Assembly: GCA_003327425.1 (NCBI GenBank)
Contig: QOQW01000004.1
Location: forward strand, 186,001-250,000
Origin: Candidatus Ozemibacter sibiricus
GTDB lineage: Bacteria; Muiribacteriota; Ozemobacteria; Ozemobacterales; Ozemobacteraceae
DNA: 64,000 bases
Reading direction: 5' to 3'
The translations under genes were made by a program, and so were the position numbers. A model generated the notes under the pieces. It did no database searches. It was given only the letters and a program-made list of their open reading frames with translations, and was not told the origin of the DNA. How positions within the stretch are numbered: the stretch's first letter is position 1; each line of letters begins with the position of its first letter. Positions 3,132-44,088 of this stretch are shown one piece after another.

Positions 3132-3365
3132 TCACTCGGCGGCAGTCGCTGCCTTCAGCGAGAAATCATCGGGGAGCTGGATCGTGGAGATGGCGTGCTT
3201 GTAGATCAACTGCTTCTTGCCCTCGGATTCGAGGAGGATGACGAAGGTATCGAAATCCAGGACCGTCCCCTGGATCTGGAAGCCCTTCATCAGGAAGATC
3301 TTGACCGGTTCGGCCTTCCCTTTGAGGACCTGGAGAATGGTGTCCTGGATGTTGATCGCTGGCAT
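3132..3365 (-). CDS. hfq: RNA chaperone Hfq
   Basis: 77 residues, the usual size of a compact Hfq. The Sm1 region (FQIQGTVLDFDTFVILLE) and the diagnostic Sm2 motif YKHAISTI are intact; the N-terminus starts MPAINIQDTIL, like typical Hfq helix 1. The family forms a hexameric ring that binds small RNAs and mRNAs. An upstream in-frame start at 3491 exists, but AGGAGGG just before the ATG at 3365 and the family length fix this start. The Shine-Dalgarno overlaps the end of the TPR gene (10-bp gap), so hfq is probably the tail of the operon starting at 14741. Hfq usually sits with miaA or hflX, so this context is unusual. Confidence 0.95.
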   Translation of the reverse strand: MPAINIQDTILQVLKGKAEPVKIFLMKGFQIQGTVLDFDTFVILLESEGKKQLIYKHAISTIQLPDDFSLKAATAAE

Positions 3366-3375
3366 GACGTCCCTC

Positions 3376-6300
3376 CTATCGTTCCTGTTCGGTCTTGTTC
3401 TGATCGTCCTTCGGTGGGGCCGAAGCCGGTAGACCGGTCTTGTGGTCCCCATCCTGATGAATGGTGCACCGCACCCTGGACTGCTCGTCAAAGAAGAATT
3501 CGCCCCCGGCGGGGCAGGGAGGGATATTGTAATCCATCTGGAACCTCTTGCGCAACTCGTCAGGGGAAAGTTCCTTCAGAATCCGTGGCGAGAGGCGCTG
3601 GAACATCTCGGTCAACCGCCGCCGCGAGTAGGCGCAACGATCCCGGGCCAGGCCAGGCAGGGGAAACAGGGCGAAGCCCTGATGGATCGAGCACTCGAGA
3701 GCTCCGGTCGGCCCATTGACGCTGATCTGGCCTCCCGCGGGACAGATCTTGTCGAGGTCTTCGAGCGGCCCGCCGAAGAACACGCGACGCAGGGCGCAGG
3801 CCCAGGCATCCAATCGACTCTTCAGCAGCAACCGCAGGGGTTGCACCGCCGTCCACCATGCCTGCCACCGCGACGGCAGGCCGCCGTACCCGGCTTCGAG
3901 CTGGATGAGGCCATCTCGGGCCTTGACCTGGATGGAGGGGTTGAAGCCCAGGCGCAGGAGCATCACCTTATAGGCGAACAGATCGCGGGCCAGACTCTGG
4001 AGGAACCCGGGGGTGACGTCCATCCCCGGCACCAGCAGCGAGCTTTCGCGAAATCCTTCGTTCGTCCAGAAGAACCGCGACAGGACGACCTGGAAGGGAG
4101 CCACCGGATTGGGGAGGAACGGGCGAACCAGCCGCGGCAGCGCGTCCAGGCAGGTCGGCCAGTCGAGGAACAGCCCTATCAGGCAATCGGCGGCATACGG
4201 GAAGGTGGCCTCGAGCGCCGCCACATCGATCGCCGGCACCGTCGGCCCGAACCCCATCATCAGATGGCCAGCCTGCTGGATCGCCCAGACCTCGAGCCGC
4301 CCCAGGCGAGCCTGCAGACGACGCCCCTCCGATGCCACCGAGATCGGCACCTCCTCGGCACCCAGCAGCCGGAGCGCATAGCTCACCACCCCGAGGGGAT
4401 CGCGGTTGGCCAGGCCCGGCATCTGCAGGTCGAACCAGGCCGACGCAGCCGGGGCGCCCAGGTCGGGAACGACCAGCGTCAGGGCCAGTTGCTCGAAGCC
4501 AGGGAACGCCAGCAAGTGGGCGGCGATCTGCTCGAACAGGACCGGACCGAGATGCACGGCCAGCCCGGCTTTCACCACCGGCGGCAGCGCGATCGGCATC
4601 GGCGGCTCGGCTTCCTCTTCCCCGCCGCGGGCGACCGCCTCGTCAGCCCCGGCTCCCTCGGTCGGCCGGTCGGCGGGGCGCGCCGTCGGGGCCGCTGTCT
4701 GGCTGCCCACCGCGACCGCGGCCGACGCCGGATCCAATCGGTAGAAATCGAACAGCGGCCGGGCCAGATCGATTTCCCGTCGCTGAATGGCTTCGCAGAG
4801 TTTGGTCAGCCGAATGGCATGCGCATAGAGCCCTTCGCCCTGGTAGACCCCGACGAGGGTCAACAGGATGCGCTTGATCTTGTCGGGATCGACCTGGGCC
4901 CCGAACAGGCGATGGTATTCCTCGAGCGCCCCATACTGGGCTTTGAGGGTGATGGCGAGGTAGAGATCCTGCTCGATGTTGTCGAGCCGCGGATCGACCC
5001 GGTGGGCCTGCTTGATGTAGTCGAGGGCCTGCCCGAACTTGCCCTGTTCGAGGAAGACCTTGCCCAGATGGACCAGGATCTCGCCGACCTCGGGGGTAAG
5101 CTGCAACGCTTTCTGCAGATAGCGCTGGGCTTCATCATAGCGACCTAGCCGGTAATAGACCCAGCCCAGGGTATCGAGGTAGCTGGCATTGGCGGGTTCC
5201 AGCTTGACCGCTTTGGTGGCCATGGCGAGCGCCTTGTCGATGTCCCGATCCAGCTCGGCCAGCAGGTAGGCGAAGTTGTTGAGCGTCTCGGGAGCGTCGG
5301 GCTTGATCTGCAAGGCCTTCTCATAATTGGCGATGGCCAGCTCATACTTCCGGGTCACGTAGTACAAGGTTCCGAGGTGGTAGTAGGGCTCGTAGGCGTC
5401 GGGATTGAGTTCGATCGATTTGCGCAGTTCGGTCTCGGCCTTCTCGTACTGCTGGTTCTTGAAGGCGGCCCAGCCCAGGCTGTCCCGGAAGGAGGCATTG
5501 TCGGGCATGCGGTCGACGGCGCGCTGGCAGAGACTCTGGGCCAGCTCGCGGTGCAGGCCGTACTCGGCGTAGAGGAACCCCAGGTTGTTGAGGGCATGCG
5601 GGTTGTTGGGGAACAGGGTCAAAATCTTCTTGTAGACCGCTTCTTCGAGCCAGAACGGCTCGGGCTTCTTCATCGCCTGATAGCTCTCGTGCAGGCCCAT
5701 GTAGATGCCCAGCAGGGTATTCTGCAGCCGGCCATTGGTCGGCATGAGGGACGCCGCTTTTTCATAGGCGCCAATGGCCAGGTAGAGGCTGTTTTCCTGC
5801 GTGCCCAGCAGCCGCAGCGCCTGCCCGACGACGAAGAAGAAGTGCGCGTCCTGGGCGGGCGCGAGCCCCAGAGCCTTCTTCAGGTCTTCCAGCGGGCGCA
5901 TCGGGCTGAAGAACCCGTTGGGCCGGTGGCGCAGCGCATGGAAGAGCACCCCTTTGACCAGGAAGTATTCCGGCTGCCCCGCCAGGATATCCTCGGCTTT
6001 CAGCAGGAAGTCCTCGAACTCGTGGTCTTTCAGATTCTTGGGATCGGGCTCTTTGTCGGCCGCGAGCAGCAGTCCGCGGATCCAGAGTTCGTTCAACACC
6101 TCCTGGCGGGGGCGCTTGGTCAGATCGCCATTCTTGAAGAGGTCGAGCACGAGCCGACGCAGCGTGGCCGCCTTCTGTTCGTCCGACAGCCGGATCAAGG
6201 CCATCCAGCGCATCAGAGCGGCCAATGGCGCCAGGGTGTTGTTCTCGTTCTCGGACAGATACTTCTTCAGCAAGACGAGGTTGAAATCGGGCGCCTTCTC

Positions 6301-6447
6301 TCGCTCGAGCCGGATTTCCTCGAGCCCGAACAGGGGAAGCCCGAAATCGAGGTCGATCGTCTCGGCCCGCGCGGGAACCGACCAGAGGCATCCCCACGAT
6401 GCCAGCAACACCACCAGCAGACCCACCCAACGCCATCCAGCTTTCAT
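3376..6447 (-). CDS. Exported TPR protein with paired C-x-A-G-G / C-x-I-H motifs
   Basis: 1023 residues. The start at 6447 follows GGAGGGATGAG and gives a signal peptide (about residues 5-28, ending PARAE); longer in-frame starts run into the upstream intergenic DNA and lack such support. Tetratricopeptide repeats fill roughly residues 60-600 and include canonical units (for example NPDAYEPYYHLGTLYY). A Pro/Ala/Glu-rich linker follows, then an unrecognised domain (about 660-890). The C-terminus carries two related modules: CPAGG at 902 with CSIH at 919-922, and CPAGG at 978 with CTIH at 994-997, possible Cys3His-like metal sites resembling tails of some pseudopilin-like proteins. Likely role: extracytoplasmic scaffold partner of the GTPase/vWA/tubulin-like proteins encoded upstream (104-bp gap). 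Function inferred from context only. Confidence 0.85.
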   Translation of the reverse strand: MKAGWRWVGLLVVLLASWGCLWSVPARAETIDLDFGLPLFGLEEIRLEREKAPDFNLVLLKKYLSENENNTLAPLAALMRWMALIRLSDEQKAATLRRLVLDLFKNGDLTKRPRQEVLNELWIRGLLLAADKEPDPKNLKDHEFEDFLLKAEDILAGQPEYFLVKGVLFHALRHRPNGFFSPMRPLEDLKKALGLAPAQDAHFFFVVGQALRLLGTQENSLYLAIGAYEKAASLMPTNGRLQNTLLGIYMGLHESYQAMKKPEPFWLEEAVYKKILTLFPNNPHALNNLGFLYAEYGLHRELAQSLCQRAVDRMPDNASFRDSLGWAAFKNQQYEKAETELRKSIELNPDAYEPYYHLGTLYYVTRKYELAIANYEKALQIKPDAPETLNNFAYLLAELDRDIDKALAMATKAVKLEPANASYLDTLGWVYYRLGRYDEAQRYLQKALQLTPEVGEILVHLGKVFLEQGKFGQALDYIKQAHRVDPRLDNIEQDLYLAITLKAQYGALEEYHRLFGAQVDPDKIKRILLTLVGVYQGEGLYAHAIRLTKLCEAIQRREIDLARPLFDFYRLDPASAAVAVGSQTAAPTARPADRPTEGAGADEAVARGGEEEAEPPMPIALPPVVKAGLAVHLGPVLFEQIAAHLLAFPGFEQLALTLVVPDLGAPAASAWFDLQMPGLANRDPLGVVSYALRLLGAEEVPISVASEGRRLQARLGRLEVWAIQQAGHLMMGFGPTVPAIDVAALEATFPYAADCLIGLFLDWPTCLDALPRLVRPFLPNPVAPFQVVLSRFFWTNEGFRESSLLVPGMDVTPGFLQSLARDLFAYKVMLLRLGFNPSIQVKARDGLIQLEAGYGGLPSRWQAWWTAVQPLRLLLKSRLDAWACALRRVFFGGPLEDLDKICPAGGQISVNGPTGALECSIHQGFALFPLPGLARDRCAYSRRRLTEMFQRLSPRILKELSPDELRKRFQMDYNIPPCPAGGEFFFDEQSRVRCTIHQDGDHKTGLPASAPPKDDQNKTEQER

Positions 6448-6551
6448 CTCATCCCTCCAGACCGGGAAGCCCTGGCGGGGCTCCCTCGACAACCGTTCGC
6501 GATTTCCCCTTGGGGCGACCAAACGCCCCGCCACCATCGTCTCTTTCATGT

Positions 6552-8465
6552 TCATGCCGCCGAGCCACCCGCGGCCGGCGGGAGCGGCGGCGGGATCTTC
6601 CCCACTTCTTCGGCCCAGGCTCGCACCGGCTCGACCATGCCACGTCGCACTTCCTGGACGAACAGATCGGCGATCGTGCGGATGGCCGGCTCGAGCGAGC
6701 CGCCCTTCCGCGGCAGCCAGAAGGTGGCCTGCACGTGGCAGACCACCCACAGGAGCACCGCCCCGCCCAGGAAGATGCCAGCCCCGGGCTCCTGCGCGGC
6801 CAGCAGCGACCAGACGAAATACCGCAGCAGCAGCAGGATGATGACCAGGGGCCCCAGGTTGAGCAGGAAGCCTTCGGCTCCCGAGGTGCGGGGCTCGAAG
6901 ACGAATTCGCTGATCTGCTCCTGGATGCGGCAGCGCACCGCCGGCGCCAGGGCGTCGTCCTGACCCAGCCGCGCCAGCAACGGGCCGCCATCGAGGTCGG
7001 CCCGGTCGGCCCGTTCGGCGAGGGCCCGCCGGAACCGCTGCCGGTGCTCATCGACCACCGGCTGCAGATCGGTCAGCAACCGCTGGGCCATGACTCCCTC
7101 CAGGTCGGAACCGGCCCCCGACAGGAACATCTGGAACCGCCCGGCCAGGGCATCGACCGCCAGCAGCAACCGCACGTACAGCCCGAACGGCCCGCTCAGC
7201 CCTTCGGCCGCGGCCGCTTCGCGCCGGCGCCGGATCTCGGGCGTCAGGCCCCGGAAGGCCTTGCCCATGGCCCGTTCGAGGTCGGCCTGGCACTCCCTGA
7301 CCCGCTCTTCGGCCCAGACGACGAGGCCGGCGGCCAGGTCGCGGGCGGCGGCCAGACGACAGGCGGCGGCCACGTGCTCGGCCGTCTCCCGCCGCATGGC
7401 GGCGATGTTCTCTTCGCTGATGCGCCGCACCAGGGCCTGGTCGAGCCGTTCCCGCAAGAAGGCCTCGAGCGCCGCGAACTGCCCGACCGGCCCGCTGACC
7501 GGGCCGCCGGTCTTCTGCAGGAGGGCATTGCGGGCCGAGACGGTGAACAGCGGCAGGGTCTCGCCGTCGGGGGGGCGCAAGCCCAGAGGAGCGATCTTGG
7601 CCAGCAGATCCCGGCGGATCTTCTCGGAGAAGGGAATGCCTTCATCGATGCGGTTGAACACGAAGACGACCCGCCGGAAGCCCATCTCGCGCCCCAGGAT
7701 CTCGTACAGGATCTGCGAATCGTATTTCTGGGTGGTGACCACGGCCAGGGCGAGGTCGGCCCGCTCCAGCACCTGGCGGAAGACCTCGCGGTGCTCGAGT
7801 TCGATGCCGTCGAGATCGGGGGTATCGACCAGGATGATCCGTTCGAGGGCGGGTTCGGCATGCACCACGACGAGGTCGTCGTCGCGCAGCACCCCGGCCA
7901 GGCGCGTGCGCGCCAGCCCTTCCCGGCGCTGATGGACGAAGACGGCCGGCCGCCTGGTGTAGCAGGCCCGCGCCGAGGCTTCCCCGATCTCGCGGCCGGC
8001 CAGGGCGTTGACCAGGGTGGTCTTGCCGACTTTGGTACCGCCCAGCATGACCACGATCAGACAGTCGGCGATCGCTTTCTCGCGCTGCCGCAGCAGGCCG
8101 AGGCGCCGCTCGACCTCGGCGTCGAGACCGGCGGCCGGCCGCCCCCACAGGCGCCGGGCCTCCCGGACCAGCCGCGCCAGGTCGGCCGCCAGCGACAGCT
8201 CCGACGGCAGTTCGCCGGCCGGTTCGCCAGCCCCGCCCGGTCCCTCGCCTGCCGGGTCGGAGCCCGCTGGGGGAAAGGCCGGCAACCCGTCGGGCGGGCG
8301 GCCCGCTGCGGCCACCCGTGGCACGACCGGCGGCTCCGGCGGCGGCGCGAGGGCTCCCGGCCCTGGCGCTGAGCGGCCTTCCACACCCGAAGGCCCGCCG
8401 GCTCCCGCCCCCGGCTCGCGCCGCAGGACGGCCCCCGCGGCCGTTCGCCCGTTCTCACAGGTCAT
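6552..8465 (-). CDS. Dynamin-like GTPase with C-terminal membrane spans
   Basis: 637 residues. After a Pro/Gly/Ala-rich N-terminus (to about 85) comes a GTPase domain with P-loop GGTKVGKTT (142-150), G3 DTPD (214-217) and G4 NRID (271-274), so nucleotide binding looks intact. A helical region follows, then two hydrophobic segments near residues 555-605, and a conserved-looking amphipathic tail. The ATG at 8465 overlaps the end of the upstream GTPase gene by 11 bp and is preceded by AAGGAGGT, indicating translational coupling. Paired large GTPases with membrane-active C-termini suggest a hetero-oligomer acting at the inner membrane, by analogy with tandem bacterial dynamins. The assignment to the dynamin/Era-like class rests on motifs and architecture only. 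Confidence 0.82.
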   Translation of the reverse strand: MTCENGRTAAGAVLRREPGAGAGGPSGVEGRSAPGPGALAPPPEPPVVPRVAAAGRPPDGLPAFPPAGSDPAGEGPGGAGEPAGELPSELSLAADLARLVREARRLWGRPAAGLDAEVERRLGLLRQREKAIADCLIVVMLGGTKVGKTTLVNALAGREIGEASARACYTRRPAVFVHQRREGLARTRLAGVLRDDDLVVVHAEPALERIILVDTPDLDGIELEHREVFRQVLERADLALAVVTTQKYDSQILYEILGREMGFRRVVFVFNRIDEGIPFSEKIRRDLLAKIAPLGLRPPDGETLPLFTVSARNALLQKTGGPVSGPVGQFAALEAFLRERLDQALVRRISEENIAAMRRETAEHVAAACRLAAARDLAAGLVVWAEERVRECQADLERAMGKAFRGLTPEIRRRREAAAAEGLSGPFGLYVRLLLAVDALAGRFQMFLSGAGSDLEGVMAQRLLTDLQPVVDEHRQRFRRALAERADRADLDGGPLLARLGQDDALAPAVRCRIQEQISEFVFEPRTSGAEGFLLNLGPLVIILLLLRYFVWSLLAAQEPGAGIFLGGAVLLWVVCHVQATFWLPRKGGSLEPAIRTIADLFVQEVRRGMVEPVRAWAEEVGKIPPPLPPAAGGSAA

Positions 8466-10419
8466 GCCGGAAGACCTCCTTCCAGAGATCCTGCAGGCGG
8501 GCGATTTCGAGGCCGACATCCTTCACGCGCAGATCGATCGGGGTGAGCAGGGGGGCGACCGGCGCGTACAGCCAATCGGCCGCCGCCAGGAAGATGGCCC
8601 GCCGGGTCTTGGCGAAATCCTCGCGGGCCCGCTGGATGAAGGGCTCGCGGGCCAGCGATTCGCCGATCTCCAGCAGGTTGGCGGGCAGGATGCTCTTGAG
8701 CCGATCGAAGACGGGCAGGGCCAGACCGCCCAGCAGATACTCGGTGGCGCCGGGCAGGAAGGTCATGGTCTGGATCGACAGCACGGCGGCGGCCAGGCCG
8801 GCCAGGGCGGCGAACCCCGGCACGACCGCCTTCATGGCGGTGATCAGCGCCGGATTGTCGTCGCAGAATCGTTCGAGGTCGGTCTCGAACCGCACGATGA
8901 CGGGCAGCAGCTGCCGTTGCACCGCTTCCCGGAAGTGGCGGTCCAGGCGCTCGGCCAGTTGCTCCGGGGTCGGCAGGTCGATCGCCTTCAGCTCTTGATG
9001 GAATTTGACCAGCAGCGGATGCCCGCTCTCGGCCCGCTCCCGGGCGAACTCCAACAGGTCGTAGCGGGCGTTCTCGAGAATCTGCCGCGCCTGCTGCAGA
9101 TCGCTGTCATCGCGCCGGGCCACCGGGTCGGGGGGCGCTTCGCTCGCCCCGAACAGCCCGCCGATGGACAGCTTCCGGAACGTCCAGGCGAGGGCATCGC
9201 CGGCCGACCGGTTGAGCTGGCTGACCAGATCGCCGACCGGCGTCTGGATCCGCGGCCCCAGCACCCGCATGATCGCCCCCTGCAGCTCGAACGGCGCCTC
9301 GTGTCCGGGCAGCCGCCGCAGCGGATCGAACAACTGCTGTTCGAAGCGCTGCTGGGTGGCGGCGATGACCCGGCGCCATTCCCGCTGGCGATGGACCAGC
9401 GACCGGGCCGCCGTCGCCAGCCGCCCGCCCGCCTGATGGAGGGCGTGCCAGATCCCCTGGGATTTGACCCGGCGCCGGGCGGCCTGCATCTCGACCAGCT
9501 TCTGCCGCAGGCTGGCGAGCTCGGCCGGCGGCAGCAAGCCTTCGCCGTCGCTGAGATCGGGATGCTCGGCGACCCGGAAGATGGTCCGCTCGTTCTCGGG
9601 CCAGCGCTCGCCATACTCGCGCACCATGTCCTCGAGCGCTTCGGTGTGACGGGGCAGGGCCTGGTTGAAGACGTCGAAGCGGCACCGCATCAGGGCCATG
9701 GCCTCGTTCAGGAAGCGGATGCCGGATTCGTCTTTGTACTTCTGCTGGGTGGTCACCCAGATGGCGAAGTCGGCCAGACGCAGCCCGAAGCGGGTCGCCT
9801 CGCGGCAGCGGGTATCGGAGCTGTCGATATCGGGGGTGTCGAGCAGCAGGGGGAGGTCATCGGGCCACTCGCCATGCTCGGTGCGGTAGACGGCGTGCCG
9901 CGGGGAATCGGGCCGCGCCAGGTCGGTGGCCGGCCGCAGAGTGAACGCCGGATGGGCCTGCACCAGCGCTTGGAGCCGCTCGACCGACCCCAGCCCGATC
10001 AACCGCTTGGTCTTGCTGGCGGTGCTGCCCGATTCGCTGACCACCCGTCCGGCCAGCGAGTTGACCAGCGTCGATTTGCCGACATTGGTGCCGCCGCACA
10101 GCAACCCGACCAGCGGCAGCTCGAGGCCGGCCCGCGCTTCGGGGATCAGCCGATCGCGCAGCAGGATCAGCCCCAGTTCGAGCCCGGACAGATCGAGATC
10201 GGCGAAGCGGGCCGGGAACGACTGCACGGTGGCGATCGCCACCTCGACCCAGCGGGCCAGGTCGTCGGCGCGGCTGAGCAGCTCTTCGACCCCGCCCGGG
10301 CCAGGGAACTCAGGCAGATCGGCGCCGCCCCCCTCGCCGGCGTCGCGCTCCTCGGGGCCGTCGCCCATCCCCTTCCCCTTCGCCCATTCTTCGGCCGACC
10401 GTGCCGGTGCCTGTGTCAT
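8455..10419 (-). CDS. Dynamin-like GTPase, partner of the next gene
   Basis: 654 residues. P-loop GGTNVGKST (109-117) and G3 DTPD (194-197) are clear; the G4 position reads VFNQALP rather than NKxD, so base recognition may be altered. The rest is mostly helical, with a hydrophobic stretch near residue 560 (AVVPGFAALAGLAAAVLSI). The chosen ATG follows a GGGAGGG stretch about 13 nt upstream; an extended frame to 10668 would overlap the vWA gene and lacks conservation-like composition. It is 26 bp downstream of the vWA gene and overlaps the following GTPase gene by 11 bp. The two GTPases share overall layout (N-terminal disordered segment, GTPase, helical stalk) and are probably ancient paralogues acting as a pair. 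Confidence 0.8.
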   Translation of the reverse strand: MTQAPARSAEEWAKGKGMGDGPEERDAGEGGGADLPEFPGPGGVEELLSRADDLARWVEVAIATVQSFPARFADLDLSGLELGLILLRDRLIPEARAGLELPLVGLLCGGTNVGKSTLVNSLAGRVVSESGSTASKTKRLIGLGSVERLQALVQAHPAFTLRPATDLARPDSPRHAVYRTEHGEWPDDLPLLLDTPDIDSSDTRCREATRFGLRLADFAIWVTTQQKYKDESGIRFLNEAMALMRCRFDVFNQALPRHTEALEDMVREYGERWPENERTIFRVAEHPDLSDGEGLLPPAELASLRQKLVEMQAARRRVKSQGIWHALHQAGGRLATAARSLVHRQREWRRVIAATQQRFEQQLFDPLRRLPGHEAPFELQGAIMRVLGPRIQTPVGDLVSQLNRSAGDALAWTFRKLSIGGLFGASEAPPDPVARRDDSDLQQARQILENARYDLLEFARERAESGHPLLVKFHQELKAIDLPTPEQLAERLDRHFREAVQRQLLPVIVRFETDLERFCDDNPALITAMKAVVPGFAALAGLAAAVLSIQTMTFLPGATEYLLGGLALPVFDRLKSILPANLLEIGESLAREPFIQRAREDFAKTRRAIFLAAADWLYAPVAPLLTPIDLRVKDVGLEIARLQDLWKEVFRHDL

Positions 10420-10445
10420 GCTCGTCTTCCGCCCTCCCGGGCCCG

Positions 10446-11480
10446 TCAGCGACGGCGCTTGAGGGAGGCCGCCCCGGCCCGCACGGTCAGCTCGAGGCCG
10501 CCCGGGCGGGCGAGATCGAAGGGGGCGCTCACCTCGGCCACCTGGACATTGTTGACGATGCCGGCCAGCCGGGTGAACCAGGTGGCCAGATCGCGACTGT
10601 CGGGCACATAGACGTAGTAGCCGTCGGTCTCTTCGGCGAGACGCTCGAGCACATCGACCTGGACCCACCCGAACCCCAGCACGAAGAGCGAGACCTCATG
10701 CAGGCGGGCGCGCTTGATGACATCTTCGAGCGTGGCCCCGCCGACATTGTCCATACCATCGGTGGTGACCATCTGGAACCGCAGCCAGGGAGCTTTCTGG
10801 ATCGGCTGCAGGGCGGTGTCGATGGCGGCATAGAGGGCGGTGCTGCCCTGGGGGATGTCTTGCCGAACGGCATTCTCGAGCGCCACCGCATCGGAGGACA
10901 GCCCGATGATCTGCCGCACGTCGGTCTGGAATTTGTACACCGCGCCGGCGTACGGCAGGGTGAGGGCTTTCAGGAAGCTGCTGTAGTTGTCTTTCAGCGC
11001 CTGCAGGTCGTCGGCGAACATGCTGCCCGACCAGTCGAGCACGCAGGAGAAGTGGGCCCGCTCGCCCCAGGAGGCCATCTGGTGCAACGGCGTGACCCGC
11101 TCGACCGTGACCGGTTGCAGCCGCCCGGTGGGATCGGCCAGGGCGACCTGCACATCGCCCGGCGGCACCACGACGAGGGGCGCGCCCTGGGCATCGGTGA
11201 CCGAGAACAGCACGGCGAACCGCTTCTCGGCCAGCCGCAACACCCGATGGAGACGCAGCGTCTGATTCAGGTTGTCGACCGGCTTGGCGCCGCTCGGAGC
11301 CCGGGCCCCGCCAGCCAGGTAGGGGCGCCAGGATTCGATCGTGCTGTTCCCCGCCCCCCATGGCGACCGCAGCGCCCACCACAGCCAGAGCAGGCCCGCC
11401 CCCCCCACCACGGCCAGGAAGGCGAGGTAATGCCAGTAGCGGATCGAGATGGGCGCGCTGCGCGGCGGAACCTCAACCAT
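10446..11480 (-). CDS. Membrane-anchored vWA-domain protein
   Basis: 344 residues with one N-terminal membrane span (about 17-37) and a von Willebrand A domain (about 140-320). The MIDAS first loop is DWSGSM (149-154, DxSxS pattern); later loops GSTALY and TTDGMDN supply the remaining metal-coordinating positions, so Mg-dependent ligand binding is plausible. A short beta-like region lies between the span and the vWA domain, with a basic tail SLKRRR. It lies in the same operon as the tubulin-like protein (135-bp gap) and the GTPases. In the family context described for tubulin-like FtsZl-1 systems, a vWA protein is one of the fixed partners. The Shine-Dalgarno is weak (AGGGGGC). Confidence 0.85.
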   Translation of the reverse strand: MVEVPPRSAPISIRYWHYLAFLAVVGGAGLLWLWWALRSPWGAGNSTIESWRPYLAGGARAPSGAKPVDNLNQTLRLHRVLRLAEKRFAVLFSVTDAQGAPLVVVPPGDVQVALADPTGRLQPVTVERVTPLHQMASWGERAHFSCVLDWSGSMFADDLQALKDNYSSFLKALTLPYAGAVYKFQTDVRQIIGLSSDAVALENAVRQDIPQGSTALYAAIDTALQPIQKAPWLRFQMVTTDGMDNVGGATLEDVIKRARLHEVSLFVLGFGWVQVDVLERLAEETDGYYVYVPDSRDLATWFTRLAGIVNNVQVAEVSAPFDLARPGGLELTVRAGAASLKRRR

Positions 11481-11615
11481 GGCAGGCCCCCTGGCCCGGC
11501 CGCCCGACGCTCAACCCGGCGACGGGCCGCCGCGCCGCCCACCGGCGCGCTCGCCATCGCCGCCGGCCAGCGATCCCGGGAAAGGCAAGGCGGAAGCGCA
11601 TCGCTCGGGCTCCGC

Positions 11616-14600
11616 TCACGCCGGGCCGGCGGGCCGCTGGCTGAGGATGCGATCGAACGATTCGTCGAGATCGGTCAGGATGCGCAGGATGCCGCTCTTG
11701 ATCGACAGCAGCTCGTCGCTGGCCGGCGACACCTCATGGTTGGCGCGGATCTCCTGCTCGATGGCGGCCTCGATGGCGCGCACCTTGTCGACGAACATCG
11801 GCCGGTATTTCTTGACGATGGCGCTCTGCTGCGGCAGGGGCAGGCCGAGCCAGAATTCCTTGTAGACGGTGTTGATCAGGTAGATGCCCATCGTGTTGTT
11901 CTTCAGGTAGTCGAACAGCTCGGCGACGGTGCGCCCGATCGGTTGCGGCTTGTCCTGCTGGTAATGCAATTCGAACTGGACCAGTTCGTCGTTGTACTCG
12001 ATGCCATGGCGCGTCTTCTCGGCATCGGCGAACAGCTCGTAGCGCAGCAGCACATAGACGAGGTAGAGCTGTTCGAGGGTCTTGGCCGGAATCAGCCCGT
12101 AGCTCGACCACAGGATCGGATAGGCGTCATTGGCCAGCACGGCATGGCAGTTGATGCGGGCGTTGTTCTTGCGATAGAGCCCGTGCCATTGCGTGATGGC
12201 GCTGAGGTTGTAGGGGCAGATGCCATGCAGGGTCTGCATCAGCGTGATCGAGAAGGGGTTGCGGGTCGGGGCGATGGTCACGCCGAGGCCGGCCTTGAGC
12301 AGGGTCTCCTTGATCTCGGCGGCCAGCGGACTGGTCTCGTCGGCGATGCCGAGGGTGATGATGTTCATGCGGGCCGGCTGATTGTTGCCGCGATCGTTGA
12401 TGGTCAGCAGCGGCGCCGACTGGTTCATCATGCTCTCGATCAGGCTCTTCTTGAACCCCTTGCGGACCGAGTCCTTCCATTGGATGAACTCTTCGATGCC
12501 GCCGAACATGCGGCGGGCCACCACCTTGCGGCAGTAGGTGACGATGTCGTTCTCGAGGGAATCGCTCTCGGGGTTGGTGTAGGCGTCCCAGTTGCGGCCC
12601 AGGTTGATCTCGACCAGGAAGGCCCGCTCGATGTCATTGTTGGTCAGTTCGCCGAGCAGATACTTGTAGAACGGATCGATGTCGCGCTCTTCGAAGATGA
12701 AGGTGCCGACGAACTTCTGGATGTTGGAATAGGGCTTGATGCGGTCGAGACAGGCTTCATAGGACCGTTCGATGAAGCCGTTCTTGCTGATGGTATCGAG
12801 CTTGCGCGCGAACTCCTCGACCTGCCGTTTGATGTTGCCCACCTGCACGCCGAGGAACTTCAGGAAATCGGACGTCGCGCCCAGGCAGAACCGCTCGTAT
12901 TCGAGCTCGACCGCCTCGAGGGCCTTCTTCTCGAGCTTCTTGAATTCTTCATGGATGTTGGTCAGCGAGAACAGGGTGCCCAGCTCGAGCAGCTTGCCGC
13001 CCAGCCCGTACATCGAGCTGAGGCGGGCCACCAGCGCATCCTTCATCACGGTGAATTCGCGCTGCTCTTTGAGCAGCCGGTTCTTGATCTCTTCTTCCTT
13101 GCGGAAGGCGACCTCGCGCGGGAAGCGGTTGAGGAACTTCTCGAAGGCGGCCAGGAAGTCGATGGCGATCAGCGCCCCCATGTCGGGATCGTTGATGATC
13201 TCGAGCACCCGCTCCTTGAGGAACTTGCCGGCTTCGATGGCCGCCTTCTCGAACCCGACCTTGACCCGGGCCCGGATGTCGTCCTTCTTGACCTTGTTGC
13301 GCTCCATCTCGTCGATCTTGCGCAGGATGTAGGCGGTGGCCGACTCGCCGGGCAGCTGGGCCGCTTCGGTGCGCATCGTATGGAACTGGGGGTTGTCCCA
13401 GTACTGGGCCCGCGGGATCGTCTTCTTGGCCAGTTCGAGCAGGCCTTCCGGGGTGAGATCGAGCCGGTTGGGATCGCTCTCGACGAACGTGTTGACCAGC
13501 TGGTCGATGCTGATCTTGCCGGCCGACAGCTTCAGCCAGTAGGTGAGATCCATCGACAGCTTGTAGGTATAGAGGTCGAGAATGACGTCGAGCGGGTAGT
13601 GGAAGCTCTTGAGACCGGCGGTCGAGAAGCACTTCAACTGCTTGCCTTCCAGGTCGGAGCTGACCTGGCCGAGGATCTGGCTGGCGTTGTCGAGCATCGA
13701 GTTCTGGGCCTGGCGCAGGTTGGTGGCCAGCTTGGTGAAGATGAACTCGGCGGCGATCGCATTGTAGGTCGGGATGTCATCGAGGCCGGTCGTGCCCAGC
13801 AGGTAGCACTGATCGAAGGGCGGCTCTTCGCAGACGGTGCCGAAGGTGGTGGGATCATGGCTCTTGCCCAGGGGGCCGTAGTTGACCATGAACTTGTTGC
13901 GGCGATCCTGGGCCAGGATGTCTTTGGCGCTGCGCGACGGCGGGAACTTCTCTTTCGACATGAAATAGAAGATCTCGACCAGCGACGCGTAGCCGTTGGC
14001 CTCGAGCCGGCCGGTGGCGTTGACGTTGGGATCGATGGCGATCTGGTTGAAGGCTTCGGGGGTCAGCTGGATGCCGACCATGACCGGCTTGCCCTTGCCG
14101 CCCGACAACTGGTAGTAGGCCATCTTGGCCAGATAGGCGACGTCGAGGACCATGCCCGCCCCGGAGCCGCCGCACAGCGAGCCGACCACGTAGAATTCGG
14201 GGGTCAGGATCTGGCCCTGCTTGTTGGTCAACGGCACGATCAGATCGTCCTGGTTGACGTTCTTGCGTGCCATGATCTTGCTGACCTTCGACTTGATCAG
14301 CTGGTAGATCTTCTGGATATCGACGAACAGCCCGAATCGGCCCGTGAAGCGAAACTGGTGGGCCCCCTGACTGATCTGGCCGATGTGGTGCTTCAGTTTC
14401 ACGGGGAACCACTCCTGGAGATAGGAGTAGGTATCGGTGTCGAGGTTGCCCGTGATCTGATTGGCGTTCTGGATGTTGATCTGGTGGTATTCCTCTTCGC
14501 GCAGGCGCGCCCCTTCGACCTTTTCGTGCTCGCGCGCGTCGAACAGATCGGTATCGATGCAGAGCAGATCGATGAAATCGGGGAGGGCCGGCGTCTGATT

Positions 14601-14741
14601 GACCTGGGCGAAGGCCCGGCGAATCTGCGGACTGTTGAGGAAGGTCTCCTTGAAATTCATCAGGACCTTCTTGCCCGTGCCGCCCAGACCGATGATCAAG
14701 GCCGGATTCAGCGCAATGCGTTGCTCGAAATTGATGCTCAT
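11616..14741 (-). CDS. Large tubulin/FtsZ-like GTPase
   Basis: 1041 residues. The N-terminal domain starts with an ALIIGLGGTGKK nucleotide-binding loop (18-25) and contains SLCGGSGAGMVLD (188-200), which corresponds to the tubulin signature G-G-x-x-G-[ST/A]-G that contacts GTP phosphates. This is the layout of the tubulin-like family (FtsZl-1 type) rather than of cell-division FtsZ, and the protein is about 2.5 times as long as FtsZ. The C-terminal about 600 residues are helical with charged coiled-coil stretches. The ATG at 14741 is favoured because an optimal promoter lies just upstream; the frame continues to 18014 but that part is antisense to another gene. It is the first gene of the 14741-to-3132 operon. 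Probable role: filament or scaffold in membrane remodelling (inference). Confidence 0.85.
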   Translation of the reverse strand: MSINFEQRIALNPALIIGLGGTGKKVLMNFKETFLNSPQIRRAFAQVNQTPALPDFIDLLCIDTDLFDAREHEKVEGARLREEEYHQINIQNANQITGNLDTDTYSYLQEWFPVKLKHHIGQISQGAHQFRFTGRFGLFVDIQKIYQLIKSKVSKIMARKNVNQDDLIVPLTNKQGQILTPEFYVVGSLCGGSGAGMVLDVAYLAKMAYYQLSGGKGKPVMVGIQLTPEAFNQIAIDPNVNATGRLEANGYASLVEIFYFMSKEKFPPSRSAKDILAQDRRNKFMVNYGPLGKSHDPTTFGTVCEEPPFDQCYLLGTTGLDDIPTYNAIAAEFIFTKLATNLRQAQNSMLDNASQILGQVSSDLEGKQLKCFSTAGLKSFHYPLDVILDLYTYKLSMDLTYWLKLSAGKISIDQLVNTFVESDPNRLDLTPEGLLELAKKTIPRAQYWDNPQFHTMRTEAAQLPGESATAYILRKIDEMERNKVKKDDIRARVKVGFEKAAIEAGKFLKERVLEIINDPDMGALIAIDFLAAFEKFLNRFPREVAFRKEEEIKNRLLKEQREFTVMKDALVARLSSMYGLGGKLLELGTLFSLTNIHEEFKKLEKKALEAVELEYERFCLGATSDFLKFLGVQVGNIKRQVEEFARKLDTISKNGFIERSYEACLDRIKPYSNIQKFVGTFIFEERDIDPFYKYLLGELTNNDIERAFLVEINLGRNWDAYTNPESDSLENDIVTYCRKVVARRMFGGIEEFIQWKDSVRKGFKKSLIESMMNQSAPLLTINDRGNNQPARMNIITLGIADETSPLAAEIKETLLKAGLGVTIAPTRNPFSITLMQTLHGICPYNLSAITQWHGLYRKNNARINCHAVLANDAYPILWSSYGLIPAKTLEQLYLVYVLLRYELFADAEKTRHGIEYNDELVQFELHYQQDKPQPIGRTVAELFDYLKNNTMGIYLINTVYKEFWLGLPLPQQSAIVKKYRPMFVDKVRAIEAAIEQEIRANHEVSPASDELLSIKSGILRILTDLDESFDRILSQRPAGPA

Positions 14742-14774
14742 GGCGTCCCCCGATTCCTGGTGGGTAGTGGGGGA

Positions 14775-14804
14775 AGTATAGTCAGGCCCGGAAAAGGGTG
14801 TCAA
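14775..14804 (-). promoter_or_regulatory. Sigma70-type promoter of the tubulin-like/vWA/GTPase operon
   Basis: On the minus strand TTGACA (14804-14799), an 18-bp spacer and TATACT (14780-14775). The predicted start of transcription, near 14768, leaves a leader of about 27 nt before the ATG at 14741. This is among the best promoter matches in the window. Confidence 0.8.
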
Positions 14805-14969: not shown

Positions 14970-17942
14970 ATGACCAGCCCCCCTGGCCCCTCTCTGACGG
15001 GGCCGACCGCTCCCCCACCCCGCCCGTGGGGAATGGTGATATTGCTGGCGATCCCGGCCCTGCTGGCCGTGGGGGGGCTGTCCATCCTGCGGCAGGGCCG
15101 CCCTGATCCCCGCCGCCAGGCGGCCGAACTGGCGATGGAGGCCGCTCTGAACCAGGTCGAAGCCGGCAAAGAGCCCCTGACCCATTTCTCCACCGTGTTC
15201 CGGCGCGTCGAAGCCCGGGTCTTCCGCCGCGTGGGCAGCCCCGCGACGGCCTGGCCGCAGGAGAAAGCCCGGCTCGATCGCCGGTATCCCGGCCTGATCG
15301 ACGGCTTGCTGCTGGATGCCGACGGCCTGCCCGTCGCGGCCGCCGACGGGTCGGCCCTGCCCCGCCGCCTGACCCAGAAGTTCGCCCAGGCCATCCGGGA
15401 TCTGCATGAGCGCCGGCAGCCCCTCCCACCGGTGGTGACCTCGTTCATCCGCTCGACCTTCGGCCCGGCGGTGGCCACCGACCTGCTGGTCCCCGGGCAA
15501 CTGGTCTACGCCGCCCCGCCCCCCGCCGCTCGCTACCTCTACATCTCCCGGCCGCGCCCGGCCGGTCTGCTGGTGCTGCGGCTGTCGCCGCCCGGCCATC
15601 TCCACGATCTCGCCTTGCGCGATGTGGTGGCCGCCGTGAACCGGAACCTCGCGGCCGCCTCGCCGCCAGAGCCCTCTCACGCTGGCCCCCTGCGCCTGGC
15701 CATCGCCTGGGCCGGCCACAGCGGCCGGGCCCTGCTGCACCGGCTGCAGATGCCGGCGGAACGGTTCGGCGAGGTCTGGCCGGCGATGATCCGCTCGCCG
15801 ACCGGCATGGTCTGGATCGGCTCGCGGCTGCTCGCCCGCCGCCTCCTCCATCCTTCGGCCTGGGTCGTCGGCCGTCTCGATCTGCCGCCGGCCAGCGACC
15901 TGCCGCTCGCCTGGCCCCTGGCAGCCTATCTGGGCCTGCTCGCGATCCTCGGCTGGCTCCGCCATCCCTGGCTGACCGGCCTGTCCGCCGCGCTGACCGG
16001 CTCGGTCCGGATCCGCCTGGCGGCCACCTTCCTGTATGCGCTGCTGGTCCCCGTCCTGGGCATGGGGCTGATCGCCGGAGCGTTCGTGGCGAATCGCCGC
16101 GACGCCCTGGAAGCGGCCGTGCACGAACAGCGGGAGCGGGCCCTCCGCAGCTTCGACCTGCGCTTCCGCACCCACCTGCACCACCTGGGCGCCCGTCTCC
16201 GCCGCCGCCTCTTCCCGCCGGGAGACCCGCCCCCCGATGGCCTGCAGGCCTTCCTCGACCGTTTCGCCAGCTGGCGCGACGAGTTCCGCTTCGATTTCTG
16301 CCGGGTCTACGACCGCCACGGGATGCGGGTGTTCGGCTATGACGACCCCGCCGCGTCCTTCCTGCCGCGCAACGCCGAGATCTTCTTCGGACGGCTGGCC
16401 AGAAGCATCCTGCTGCAGACCGAGGTCGAAGCCGCCCGGCCCGGGCAGCCGCCCCGCCGCCGCGCCGAACTCCCCATCCCCCTGGAGGCGGTCTATTTCG
16501 ACGAACTGGAGACCGGGCCCTTCCACAATTTCCTTTTCTACTGGCCGCTGGGCACCCAGGCCGACCAGCCCACCCACATGGCGTTCCTGGTCTGGAACCG
16601 CAAGCGCATGGAACGCAACTACGTGCAGAGCGAACTGCCTCGCCTGGCCCGTCAGCTCGGAGAGGGCGAGATCTTCGCCTGGTCGCCGACCGGGAAAGGC
16701 CCGAGCTGGCCGCCCGCCTTCCGGCAGGCGCGTCTGGTGGCGCCGTTCCTGCGCGAGGTCACCACCAGCTCGCCCAGCTACCGGCGGCGGGTGCCGGGCG
16801 GCGAAGGGCAGAGCTGGCTCTTGACCGGAGTGCGCGGCACCAACCTCGCCAACTATTCCCTGCTCAGCCTGATCACCGACCGGGAAATCCAGGCCACGCT
16901 CGCCGATCTGGCCTGGTATTTCCGGTTCGTGGCGGGATCGCTGCTGCTGCTGGGGGCGCTGATCGCCTCGCTGGTGGCCAGAACGTTCCTGGTCCCGCTG
17001 CAGCGCCTGACCGGAGCGGTGACCGCCGTCGCCGCCCGTCGCTTCGACCATCGCCTGCCCCCGGGCGGGGATGACGAGCTGGGCCGGCTGGGCGAGCTGT
17101 TCAATACCGCGCTCGCCAGCCTGTCCGACCTGGAGGTGGCGCGGACCGTCCAGGCCCATCTGTTCCCCGCCGCGCCGCTGGCTCGCCCCCACTTCGTGGT
17201 GGTCGGCTCGACCCGCACGGCGGCCCAGGTCGGCGGCGATTTCTACGACTACGGCCCCGACCGCGCGGGAACGGGGTGGCGTCTGTTGATCGGCGATGTG
17301 GCGGGTCACGGCGTCGGGGCGGCTCTGGTGGTGGCCCTGGCCAAGACCGTGCTGGGGCATCCGGGCACCCCGCCCGAACCGACCGCGGCCCTGCGCTGCC
17401 TGCACGAGCGACTGCTGGCCATCCTGCAGCGCCGCAAGATGCTGACCTGCCTGCTCGGCTGGCTGTCGGCCGAAGGCGACCGCCTGCATCTGGCGGCCGC
17501 CGGCCAGACCTGGCCGCTGGTGGTCCGGGCGGGAACGGCGAACTACCTTCCCCTCTCCAGCCTGCCGCTCGGCAGCCGGGCCCGCTGGACCCCGGGCACC
17601 GCCACGCTCGACCTCCAGCCTGGCGATGCCGTCGTCCTGTATTCGGACGGCCTGGTGGAAGCGGCCGACCAGAACGGGAACCCGATCGGATATGAACGGT
17701 GGCGACGGGACCTGCCCGGCCTGCTCCGCGAGAACGCCGTCGCCACCGAAGCCGCCATCAGCGCCTGGCATCGCGCCCTGGCCCCGGCCGATCCGCCGGC
17801 CGACGACGTGACGGTGGTCGTGCTGCAACGGCCGGCCGCGCCCACGCCAGCAGCTGATTCCCAGCCGGCCGGCAGCCCGGGTGACCAGCCGACCGCCACG
17901 GCGGGCCCCCGGCCTGAGCCGCCTGCCCAGGAGCGCCGATGA
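14970..17942 (+). CDS. Receptor-type SpoIIE/RsbU PP2C phosphatase A1
   Basis: 990 residues. Hydrophobic spans at about 20-40, 309-330, 343-374 and 649-674 define two extracytoplasmic regions. A HAMP-like segment (about 675-725) leads to the PP2C-type phosphatase domain (about 735-955). Metal-binding motifs are intact: VGGDFYDY (near 754), GDVAGHG (775), SDGLVEA (892) and ADDVTVV (945). Family role: dephosphorylation of anti-sigma-factor antagonists or similar serine/threonine phosphoproteins in response to a signal; no STAS or anti-sigma gene is nearby, so the substrate is unknown. The C-terminus has a Pro/Ala-rich tail. The stop overlaps the next start (ATGA at 17939). It lies divergent from the tubulin-like operon. 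Confidence 0.88.
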   Translation: MTSPPGPSLTGPTAPPPRPWGMVILLAIPALLAVGGLSILRQGRPDPRRQAAELAMEAALNQVEAGKEPLTHFSTVFRRVEARVFRRVGSPATAWPQEKARLDRRYPGLIDGLLLDADGLPVAAADGSALPRRLTQKFAQAIRDLHERRQPLPPVVTSFIRSTFGPAVATDLLVPGQLVYAAPPPAARYLYISRPRPAGLLVLRLSPPGHLHDLALRDVVAAVNRNLAAASPPEPSHAGPLRLAIAWAGHSGRALLHRLQMPAERFGEVWPAMIRSPTGMVWIGSRLLARRLLHPSAWVVGRLDLPPASDLPLAWPLAAYLGLLAILGWLRHPWLTGLSAALTGSVRIRLAATFLYALLVPVLGMGLIAGAFVANRRDALEAAVHEQRERALRSFDLRFRTHLHHLGARLRRRLFPPGDPPPDGLQAFLDRFASWRDEFRFDFCRVYDRHGMRVFGYDDPAASFLPRNAEIFFGRLARSILLQTEVEAARPGQPPRRRAELPIPLEAVYFDELETGPFHNFLFYWPLGTQADQPTHMAFLVWNRKRMERNYVQSELPRLARQLGEGEIFAWSPTGKGPSWPPAFRQARLVAPFLREVTTSSPSYRRRVPGGEGQSWLLTGVRGTNLANYSLLSLITDREIQATLADLAWYFRFVAGSLLLLGALIASLVARTFLVPLQRLTGAVTAVAARRFDHRLPPGGDDELGRLGELFNTALASLSDLEVARTVQAHLFPAAPLARPHFVVVGSTRTAAQVGGDFYDYGPDRAGTGWRLLIGDVAGHGVGAALVVALAKTVLGHPGTPPEPTAALRCLHERLLAILQRRKMLTCLLGWLSAEGDRLHLAAAGQTWPLVVRAGTANYLPLSSLPLGSRARWTPGTATLDLQPGDAVVLYSDGLVEAADQNGNPIGYERWRRDLPGLLRENAVATEAAISAWHRALAPADPPADDVTVVVLQRPAAPTPAADSQPAGSPGDQPTATAGPRPEPPAQERR

Positions 17943-20932: not shown

Positions 20933-21212
20933 CCTCCGGGTGGGGGCGGGCCGCCGACCGCTGGCCGTAGAACGCGCCCCCCCGCCCCCGCGCGTCAGGC
21001 GGAACGGAACCGCCGACGAAAGGAGGCCCGGCCCCGCCACCGCCTGATCTGAGCGGCGCATGGCGGCCGGCGACTGCCAGCGGCGCGCCGCGAAGGGATG
21101 CGCGAGCGCGCCGAATCCTGTACACTGGGGCCACGGTGGTCTGCCATGCCCCGGGAGCGACCCGGGCGCGCCGGCAGGCGTCACCGCAGACGAAGGAACG
21201 ACCAGAGGGGCG
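20933..21212 (+). other. Spacer between the two phosphatase pairs
   Basis: About 280 bp separate B1 from A2. A TACACT at 21121-21126 could be a -10 element, but no convincing -35 sequence is present at 16-18 bp. I see no gene, terminator or repeat here. The second pair may therefore either be cotranscribed with the first or have its own weak promoter. Confidence 0.4.
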
Positions 21213-35953: not shown

Positions 35954-36913
35954 ATGAAACCATTGGAGCTGAGTTCCATCGCCGAGGTCTGGCGATCCGC
36001 CCTGACCATCCTCGAGGACAGCCTCCGGCCCTATGGCAGCGACCTCCAGATCTGGTTCCCCTGGGGAAAGACCTGGCGTGGCCACGACCGCAAAGGCATG
36101 CTCCCGCCCACCGACCTTCCCCACGACCTGGGCCAGGCCAAGGGCGCCCGCTTCGGCGGCCGCCTCTGGACCTGTCTGCCCGCCGGCCAGGTGAGCTGGC
36201 TGCTCTGCCTGAAACCGGCCTCGCCCCCCGGCCCCGATCTGGCGGGCTGGACCCCCGGCCCGCGCGAGTCGGCTCCCCTGGCCCTCCTTGCCGAATTCCT
36301 GCGCCTGGAAGGGTTGCTCGGCCTCACCATCAAGGTGCTGGAGCACCGCGCCAGCGAACGCGCCGGCCACTGGGATCGCGTCCGCCACCTGGCGGTCGCC
36401 GTCGGCCGCCAGCTCGGCCTTTCCCCGGCCGAACTGGTCGATCTCGAGCTGACCGCCCTCCTGCACGATCTGGGCAAAGTGGCCCTGCCCGCCGACATCC
36501 TCGAAGAGACCCGGCCCCTGACACCCGCCGAACGCCGCCAGGTCGAGAGCCATTCCCTGGTCGGGGCCGGCATGATCCGCGAGATTCCAGGCCTGGAGCG
36601 GGTGGCCGACTACGTCCAGTCCCACCATGAAGCCCCCGATGGCTCTGGGTATCCCCGCGGTCTCGCCGGCGCCGATATTCCCCTGATCTCCCTGATCGTC
36701 GGCGCCGTCGATGCGTTCGACGCCATGACGCATTACCGGCCGTACGCCTCGGAACGCACGTACAAGGAATCGATCCAGGAGATGATCGCCCAGACCGGCA
36801 AGTACGACGACCGGGTGCTCTGGGCCCTGCAGGATGTGCTGCGCCGCCTGGGCATCCTCGATACCCATCCGATGGTCAATCCGCCGGCGGCCGACCAGGA
36901 AGCCCGCCCATGA
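35954..36913 (+). CDS. HD-GYP-type phosphodiesterase, soluble
   Basis: 319 residues. The N-terminal about 120 residues are an unrecognised domain, possibly a degenerate GAF-like sensor. The HD-GYP domain (about 120-305) has HDLGK at 171-175, SHSLVGAGMI, HH at 224-225, DGSGYP at 229-234 and GAVDAFDAMTHYRPY. The family degrades c-di-GMP (or cGAMP) to linear products using a di-iron or tri-iron site; these ligands appear present, with GYP itself conserved. No membrane span or receiver domain. AGGAGG precedes the ATG. It may counteract the GGDEF protein at the left edge, though the two are not linked. Confidence 0.88.
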   Translation: MKPLELSSIAEVWRSALTILEDSLRPYGSDLQIWFPWGKTWRGHDRKGMLPPTDLPHDLGQAKGARFGGRLWTCLPAGQVSWLLCLKPASPPGPDLAGWTPGPRESAPLALLAEFLRLEGLLGLTIKVLEHRASERAGHWDRVRHLAVAVGRQLGLSPAELVDLELTALLHDLGKVALPADILEETRPLTPAERRQVESHSLVGAGMIREIPGLERVADYVQSHHEAPDGSGYPRGLAGADIPLISLIVGAVDAFDAMTHYRPYASERTYKESIQEMIAQTGKYDDRVLWALQDVLRRLGILDTHPMVNPPAADQEARP

Positions 36914-43574: not shown

Positions 43575-44036
43575 ATGGCCGATCTGCCTCCTTCTCCTCT
43601 CGCCGCCCTCGAGGCCGACCTGCGCACCCTGATCGCCCGCGCCGCCACCCTCGAGAAAGAGAAGGCCGCCGCCCTCGATGAGGGGAAGACCCGCACGCGC
43701 CGTTTGCTGCTCGAATTCATCGAGGTGGCCGACACCTTCGAGACGCTGTTCCGCCAGTTCGAGGCCGAACCCGCCCCCGCCCCCGAGACGGCGGCCTGGG
43801 TAGCCAACTTCCGCACCCTGTACAAGATTCATCTGCGCGCTCTCAAGCGGCACGGCGCCACCCCGCTGCCTTCGCCGGTCGGCCAGAAGGTCGACCCCCA
43901 TCGGCACCAGGTGGCCGAAGCGGTCGCCGCTCCCGGCCACCCGCCGGAAACCATCATCGAACAGCTCAAACCCGGCTGGGTGTGGCATGACGAACTGCTG
44001 CGCCCCGCCGAAGTCAAAGCGACACCGGCCGGGTGA
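43575..44036 (+). CDS. GrpE-like nucleotide exchange factor
   Basis: 153 residues, somewhat shorter than typical GrpE. The N-terminal helix is short; the core helices contain LLLEFIEVADTFETLF and NFRTLYKIHLRALKRHG, and the C-terminal beta domain contains VGQKVDPHRHQVAEAV and GWVWHDELLRPAEVKV-like sequence, matching the GrpE beta-wing that inserts into the Hsp70 nucleotide cleft. Expected role: ADP release from the Hsp70 encoded 52 bp downstream. Divergence suggests a dedicated partner for the unusual Hsp70 rather than the general GrpE of the cell. Confidence 0.78.
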   Translation: MADLPPSPLAALEADLRTLIARAATLEKEKAAALDEGKTRTRRLLLEFIEVADTFETLFRQFEAEPAPAPETAAWVANFRTLYKIHLRALKRHGATPLPSPVGQKVDPHRHQVAEAVAAPGHPPETIIEQLKPGWVWHDELLRPAEVKATPAG

Positions 44037-44088
44037 CACCGGCCGACCGACCACAGCGACCGGGCCAAGCCCGGCCAAGGAGGGATCC

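Follow-up and report, generated by a model that had tools for sequence, protein, structure and literature searches.

A locus in the genome of Candidatus Ozemibacter sibiricus brings together genes for a tubulin-like protein (TUB), a membrane protein with a vWA domain and two dynamin-like proteins (DLPs), GTP1 and GTP2, followed by genes for an exported TPR protein and for Hfq. It lies on the minus strand of a 64,000-nucleotide stretch of DNA, here called the window, which is located on contig 35 of a 5.7 Mb genome (G000). The host belongs to Candidatus Riflebacteria, family Ozemobacteraceae, and named relatives with protein identities of up to 97% are assigned to Candidatus Riflebacteria / Candidatus Ozemobacteraceae. 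The locus can be classed as a variant FtsZl1-vWA-GTPase system, a type that Makarova and Koonin predicted in 2010 to act in membrane remodelling (PMC2875224); here the DLP pair takes the role of the GTPase. TUB, vWA, GTP1 and GTP2 form the best-supported module, one that is clade-specific yet cohesive, and TPR-hfq is a separable neighbour unit. DLP pairs are ordinary in bacteria; what is unusual here is that one accompanies a tubulin-like protein and a vWA protein. As the linked GTPases are recognisably dynamin-like membrane proteins, the 2010 prediction becomes directly testable.

Gene content and protein families

Read downward from position 14741, the minus strand carries TUB, vWA, GTP1, GTP2, TPR and hfq in that order, with 135, 26, −11, 104 and 10 nt between successive genes. 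The original prediction, made from the letters of the window alone, had set the first five of these in one operon. All five are present where it located them, and what it overlooked is hfq, immediately beyond TPR.

TUB comprises 1041 amino acids (aa; 11616–14741, minus strand) and its assignment to the Tubulin_2/FtsZl1 family is supported by a Pfam match together with a predicted structure. Against PF13809 the match reaches E=6.9e-53 and 180.6 bits, with a cut-off of 27, and thereby bears out the anticipated 1041-residue tubulin-like protein in the very profile search that had been proposed as a check. The protein consists of a tubulin-like N-terminal part of about 400 aa, harbouring GLGGTG at residues 18–23 and GGSGAGM at residues 191–197, a long coiled coil at about residues 486–652 (some 165 residues) and an alpha/beta and helical C-terminus, which in the AlphaFold2 model (pLDDT 75, pTM 0.63) is for the most part helical but includes some strands. 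The GLGGTG and GGSGAG loops are near-invariant in those family members that contain the residues, and so is N249, the region of which is taken as T6/H7. A Foldseek search with the model returned TubZ (E=5e-4), FtsZ and CetZ as the best PDB matches, consistent with the predicted tubulin fold of the N-terminal region being TubZ/FtsZ-like. Only the structure model established this link, as no tubulin relative emerged when the PDB was searched by sequence, whether with TUB by itself or with a profile, and an NCBIfam scan gave nothing specific for TUB or for either GTPase. The models of TUB and GTP2 are single chains, and the alignments behind them are shallow (32 and 22 sequences).

The second gene encodes the vWA protein (344 aa; 10446–11480, minus strand), which matches PF00092 with E=6e-12. 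The residues of its metal ion-dependent adhesion site (MIDAS), D149, S151, S153, T214 and D241, are unchanged in an alignment of 17 family members, and hydropathy gives a single, N-terminal transmembrane (TM) helix at residues 19–37; the membrane vWA protein with an intact MIDAS that had been expected is therefore present. Judging from this layout, the vWA domain probably faces the periplasm. Topology here, and the signal peptide of TPR, are called from hydropathy and residue pattern. Among the relatives, for which g1–g11 (genera) and f5, f6 and f8 (families) serve as working labels, g9 and g3 have, between TUB and vWA, a gene for a membrane protein of 84 aa (L031 4622–4873; L032 3028–3279). 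By eye, this small protein resembles the N-terminal TM segment of the vWA protein itself.

GTP1, the first or upstream GTPase (654 aa; 8455–10419, minus strand), and GTP2, the second (637 aa; 6552–8465, minus strand), have genes that overlap by exactly the 11 bp previously noted (8455–8465). The open reading frames as listed mechanically extend 5′ of the likely starts, and ATG 10419 and ATG 8465 are used instead. At the level of the predicted fold GTP2 is confirmed as dynamin-like, because BDLP is the best Foldseek match (E=2.8e-10) and the top PDB matches also include IniA, the Campylobacter DLP pair, Mfn1/2 and LeoA. Its Pfam match to Dynamin_N is above the cut-off, its AlphaFold2 model (pLDDT 78) is helical, and a hydrophobic C-terminal hairpin (residues 533–551 and 564–582 by hydropathy) is included in the model. 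Model and hydropathy together thus give GTP2 both the neck/trunk and the membrane-inserting element by which DLPs are recognised. For GTP1, Pfam places MMR_HSR1 above the cut-off and Dynamin_N below it, and the GTP1 profile matches mitofusin-2 with E=0.002. Profile comparison of GTP1 with GTP2 gives E=2.9e-30 over 292 columns; on this comparison GTP1 is a paralogue of GTP2 to which the dynamin-like label extends, in line with the twin DLPs originally proposed.

The two partners differ in their G4 motifs. GTP1 retains an intact P-loop and G3, with FNQALP in place of G4, while the G4 of GTP2 reads NRID; the altered motif had been correctly spotted but attributed to the second GTPase rather than to the first. 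FNQxxP occupies the G4 position in all tubulin-linked GTP1 homologues, and the homologues linked to energy-coupling factor (ECF) transporter genes in g4, g8 and g10 have TKxD. EcfA/EcfA/EcfT-like genes adjoin the diverged DLP pair at L097, L098, L099, L100, L104 and L109.

Linkage across related genera

Most of the genomes compared are draft assemblies in many contigs, and absences from incomplete genomes are therefore weak evidence. At some loci of the family, genes are interrupted by stops or cut at contig ends, for example in G015 and G022. Genera g1 and g2 carry the entire series TUB-vWA-GTP1-GTP2-TPR-hfq, and g9 has the same series across contig ends, with the small membrane protein inserted after TUB. 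The order TUB-vWA-GTP1-GTP2 is held in g1, g2, g6 and g9 at identities of 34–97%. In g6 these four genes are found together, with TPR-hfq elsewhere and differing flanks. It is because all four stay together without TPR-hfq that they are regarded as the best-supported module, and this cohesion is the strongest evidence for a tight machine.

The trees agree with a module confined to one clade. In the TUB tree, the genera with DLPs in the TUB operon form a single clade with support of 99/100. The GTP2 tree separates a tubulin-linked type, to which g7 belongs, from an unlinked type, and the branches within the linked type largely match the TUB tree. Joins of the long rows f8_G038 and f6_G028 (GTP2 tree) and f5_G027c (TUB tree) were flagged as unreliable and are not used as proof.

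TPR-hfq behaves as a unit of its own. The two genes adjoin in 21 of the 22 loci where the contig permits a check. In two g5 genomes, one of them 93% complete, TPR-hfq is present and no TUB, vWA or DLP pair was found. That the pair occurs in g5, where TUB was not detected, and lies away from TUB in g6 makes it separable and removes the ground for treating TPR as an added element of the system, as the original prediction had done. Genera g4 and g8 have TUB-vWA-TPR-hfq, although unrelated genes separate TUB and vWA in G022, and in g10 and g11 TUB lies directly upstream of TPR(-hfq), with neither vWA nor DLP genes between.

A candidate membrane module and competing readings

The preferred reading, held tentatively and with slightly less than even confidence, is that the locus encodes an inner-membrane remodelling or tethering module, an FtsZl1-vWA-GTPase variant with a BDLP/mitofusin-type heteropair. 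In the function that we infer, the two DLPs would form an asymmetric pair, in which one partner has a near-canonical G4 together with a hydrophobic hairpin and the G4 of the other is degenerate. The heteropair would gather at the inner membrane, on its cytoplasmic side, and curve or tether the membrane by dimerising in a GTP-dependent manner. TUB may provide a cytoplasmic scaffold through its nucleotide-binding domain and coiled coil, positioning or clustering the DLPs, and the single-pass vWA protein could use its MIDAS to tie the assembly, across the membrane, to ligands in the envelope. TPR and Hfq would be products of the same unit, but would constitute a separable neighbour pair. That the tubulin-superfamily protein and the dynamin-superfamily heteropair operate as one unit, with vWA linking through the inner membrane, is rather doubtful. 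A reviewer of the 2010 paper raised the objection that a tubulin located in the cytoplasm would not work with periplasmic partners (PMC2875224); as the vWA protein has a TM helix, a route from cytoplasm to periplasm is at least possible. No experimental test of the FtsZl1 membrane-remodelling prediction was found in the literature searched, and a search for literature joining tubulin, dynamin and Riflebacteria found nothing relevant.

A number of observations weigh against such a module. The canonical T7 catalytic loop is not recognisable in TUB by family comparison, rendering filament formation uncertain; this agrees with the earlier report that the T7 region of FtsZl1 could not be confidently aligned (PMC2875224). 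The fold matches are low in global TM-score, reaching at most 0.17 by query and 0.49 by target for TUB, and 0.31 and 0.49, respectively, for GTP2. At 16 Tubulin_2 loci outside the phylum (12 genome and 4 plasmid) no DLP neighbour was found at E<=0.01. Within the family, g3 (G004) splits the DLP genes, with GTP1 beside TUB-vWA and GTP2 beside TPR-hfq on separate contigs (L032 and L107), and no vWA match was found anywhere in the g10 and g11 genomes though TUB is kept. The co-absence of TUB, vWA and the DLP pair in g5 speaks for the module but amounts to a single evolutionary event. What argues most strongly against a tight machine is the independent DLP pair of sister genera: g4, g8, g10 and g11, four genera of the family, have a diverged pair that is not linked to TUB. 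In g4, g8 and g10 this tandem pair stands beside the ECF transporter genes after the ribosomal cluster (rplQ), and in g11 and g7 it occupies other places; the g7 pair is of the linked type but stands alone (L106), TUB not being detected in that genus. A fixed five-gene operon is thus not supported, the DLP pair being unlinked in four TUB-bearing genera and vWA lacking in two. The genes are not unlinked in all relatives, but the five-gene system as originally put forward is only partly supported by the neighbourhood comparison.

A rival explanation is an operon of convenience, in which the DLP pair is an autonomous membrane repair or tethering device and TPR-hfq is unrelated, the genes sharing a promoter with TUB-vWA in this clade without forming a common machine. 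Homologous pairs apart from TUB in g4, g8, g10 and g11, and in g7, speak for this explanation, as do TPR-hfq pairs without or apart from TUB in g5 and g6. It can also draw on the presence of DLP genes, at whatever site, in every tubulin-bearing genome of the family that is at least 82% complete. It fits poorly with the retention of the four-gene order across wide divergence in most of the tubulin-linked clade, and with g6, where the four genes remain together though TPR-hfq has gone elsewhere. An operon of convenience is considered unlikely.

The membrane module gains its context from the systems that it resembles. Its likeness to the FtsZl1-vWA-GTPase system, the prediction of which had been cited correctly, lies in the Tubulin_2 family, in the plan of N-terminal domain, coiled coil and helical C-terminus, in the adjacent vWA gene with its intact MIDAS and in the GTPase genes of the operon. 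Several Tubulin_2 loci in other phyla likewise have adjacent vWA genes. The FtsZl1 operons of the 2010 paper contain vWA, kinase, OmpA-like and GTPase genes, and dynamin, TPR and Hfq are nowhere mentioned; the GTPases are of the TxKD type and are sometimes fused to a DnaJ-type Cys-rich domain (PMC2875224). The present locus, on the other hand, has no kinase or OmpA gene, has TPR and hfq downstream and, apparently in place of a TxKD GTPase, has a dynamin-like pair, one member of which carries a membrane hairpin. Equating this pair with the distinct GTPase of the 2010 system, as had been done, is not supported. Two canonical-type FtsZl1 loci carry a zinc-ribbon GTPase matching DO-GTPase2 (PF19993), and profile comparison finds no similarity between DO-GTPases and GTP1 or GTP2 past the P-loop. 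The GTPase family therefore differs from that of these two loci, and the GTPases of the 2010 paper are set apart by description only.

DLPs in tandem pairs are typical of bacteria, and the two of Campylobacter act as a heterotetramer that tethers membranes (PMC6104087). The adjacent, overlapping, paralogous genes described here recall DLP1/DLP2 of Campylobacter, DynA/DynB of Streptomyces and LeoABC of enterotoxigenic Escherichia coli. Unlike these known pairs, the present one is housed in an operon with a tubulin-like protein and vWA, and the G4 of one partner is degenerate.

Loci with tubulin, vWA and DO-GTPase have been classed among predicted conflict systems (Kaur et al., 2020; PMC7159879), and an anti-phage system, in which a multimerising tubulin-like effector is switched by GTPases and DLPs replace the DO-GTPases, is a live rival, albeit quite an unlikely one. 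The locus shares with the DO-GTPase/GAP1-N2 systems a neighbourhood in which a tubulin with a C-terminal coiled coil occurs together with paired GTPases and a vWA protein anchored in the membrane, and GTP2 has weak PADLOC matches to LeoA and LeoBC. Plasmids of Thermus and Meiothermus carry vWA, a tubulin-like gene and a gene for an unknown protein of about 680 aa beside brxL and helicase genes (L169 7404–15363; L172 7375–16467), a neighbourhood that suggests a defence context, and in Azospirillum vWA-tubulin adjoins caspase genes. Tubulin goes unmentioned in a recent survey of BREX. The GTPases of the present locus, however, are dynamin-like, and G000 has no match to DO-GTPase2 (PF19993), PF19975 not having been searched genome-wide nor GAP1 searched for. 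In addition, the locus has no variable effector gene, and no protein of the window has a strong PADLOC match, those of TPR also being weak. Inherited throughout the family, with a conserved promoter and with hfq linkage across most of it, the locus does not resemble a mobile defence island.

A scaffold for envelope assembly or secretion, built around TUB and exported TPR proteins and with vWA and the DLPs as optional accessories, would account for TUB directly 5′ of TPR-hfq in g10 and g11, and for family f5, where a second, very divergent TUB paralogue is immediately followed by a different exported TPR protein (L061 9274–11070), but it is improbable, since adjacency of TUB and TPR is weak evidence in genomes so rich in TPR genes (31–76 matches each) and since TPR-hfq persists in g5 and g6 independently of TUB.

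Probable transcription unit and neighbouring genes

A putative sigma-70 promoter, TTGACA-N18-TATACT (14775–14804, minus strand), ends 33 nt 5′ of the TUB ATG. It is the sole promoter-like match in 13.7 kb, where shuffled sequence is expected to yield 1.5, so that taken alone it is no better than chance. Conservation is what recommends it: an 11/12 match is kept in 11 of the 17 family loci examined, 30–43 nt 5′ of the same TUB ATG. Of the one strong promoter originally claimed, the near-consensus sequence thus stands, and its strength of evidence derives from the relatives. Co-transcription of all six genes, from promoter to hfq, may be proposed from this arrangement. The unit probably does include hfq (3132–3365, minus strand), because this gene starts 10 nt past the TPR stop and a terminator-like hairpin with a T run, the likely end of the unit, follows it at 2821–2801 on the same strand. 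The next conserved neighbour beyond hfq is a polysaccharide deacetylase gene (1659–2774).

TPR (1023 aa; 3376–6447, minus strand), recognised by Pfam TPR families and family alignment, has a hydrophobic N-terminus with an A-x-A site, as expected of an exported protein. Its C-terminus holds two CPxGG...C[ST]xH modules, possibly metal-binding, which the family alignment shows to be absent in genus g11. By position TPR would be co-transcribed with the genes upstream; its membership in the functional module is doubtful. An NCBIfam match of TPR to MamA represents generic TPR similarity and was not accepted as a magnetosome link.

Divergent from the operon, the plus strand carries four successive large HAMP-SpoIIE phosphatase genes (14970–27070). 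An HD-domain gene (35954–36910) lies about 21 kb from the operon here, and in related genera it is placed divergently to the tubulin-like gene; the difference in position indicates that the region upstream of the operon has been rearranged between genera. Genes for an Hsp70 with a double zinc ribbon and for a ClpB-type AAA protein (43987–46527 and 50052–52514) are found about 30 kb from the operon, and an Hsp70-like neighbour also occurs at L065, a canonical-type tubulin locus of the same phylum. Another tubulin-like gene of family f5 precedes, in this order, genes for a membrane protein of about 425 aa and for a CHASE2-nucleotide cyclase (L057 639–6779; L059, L062).

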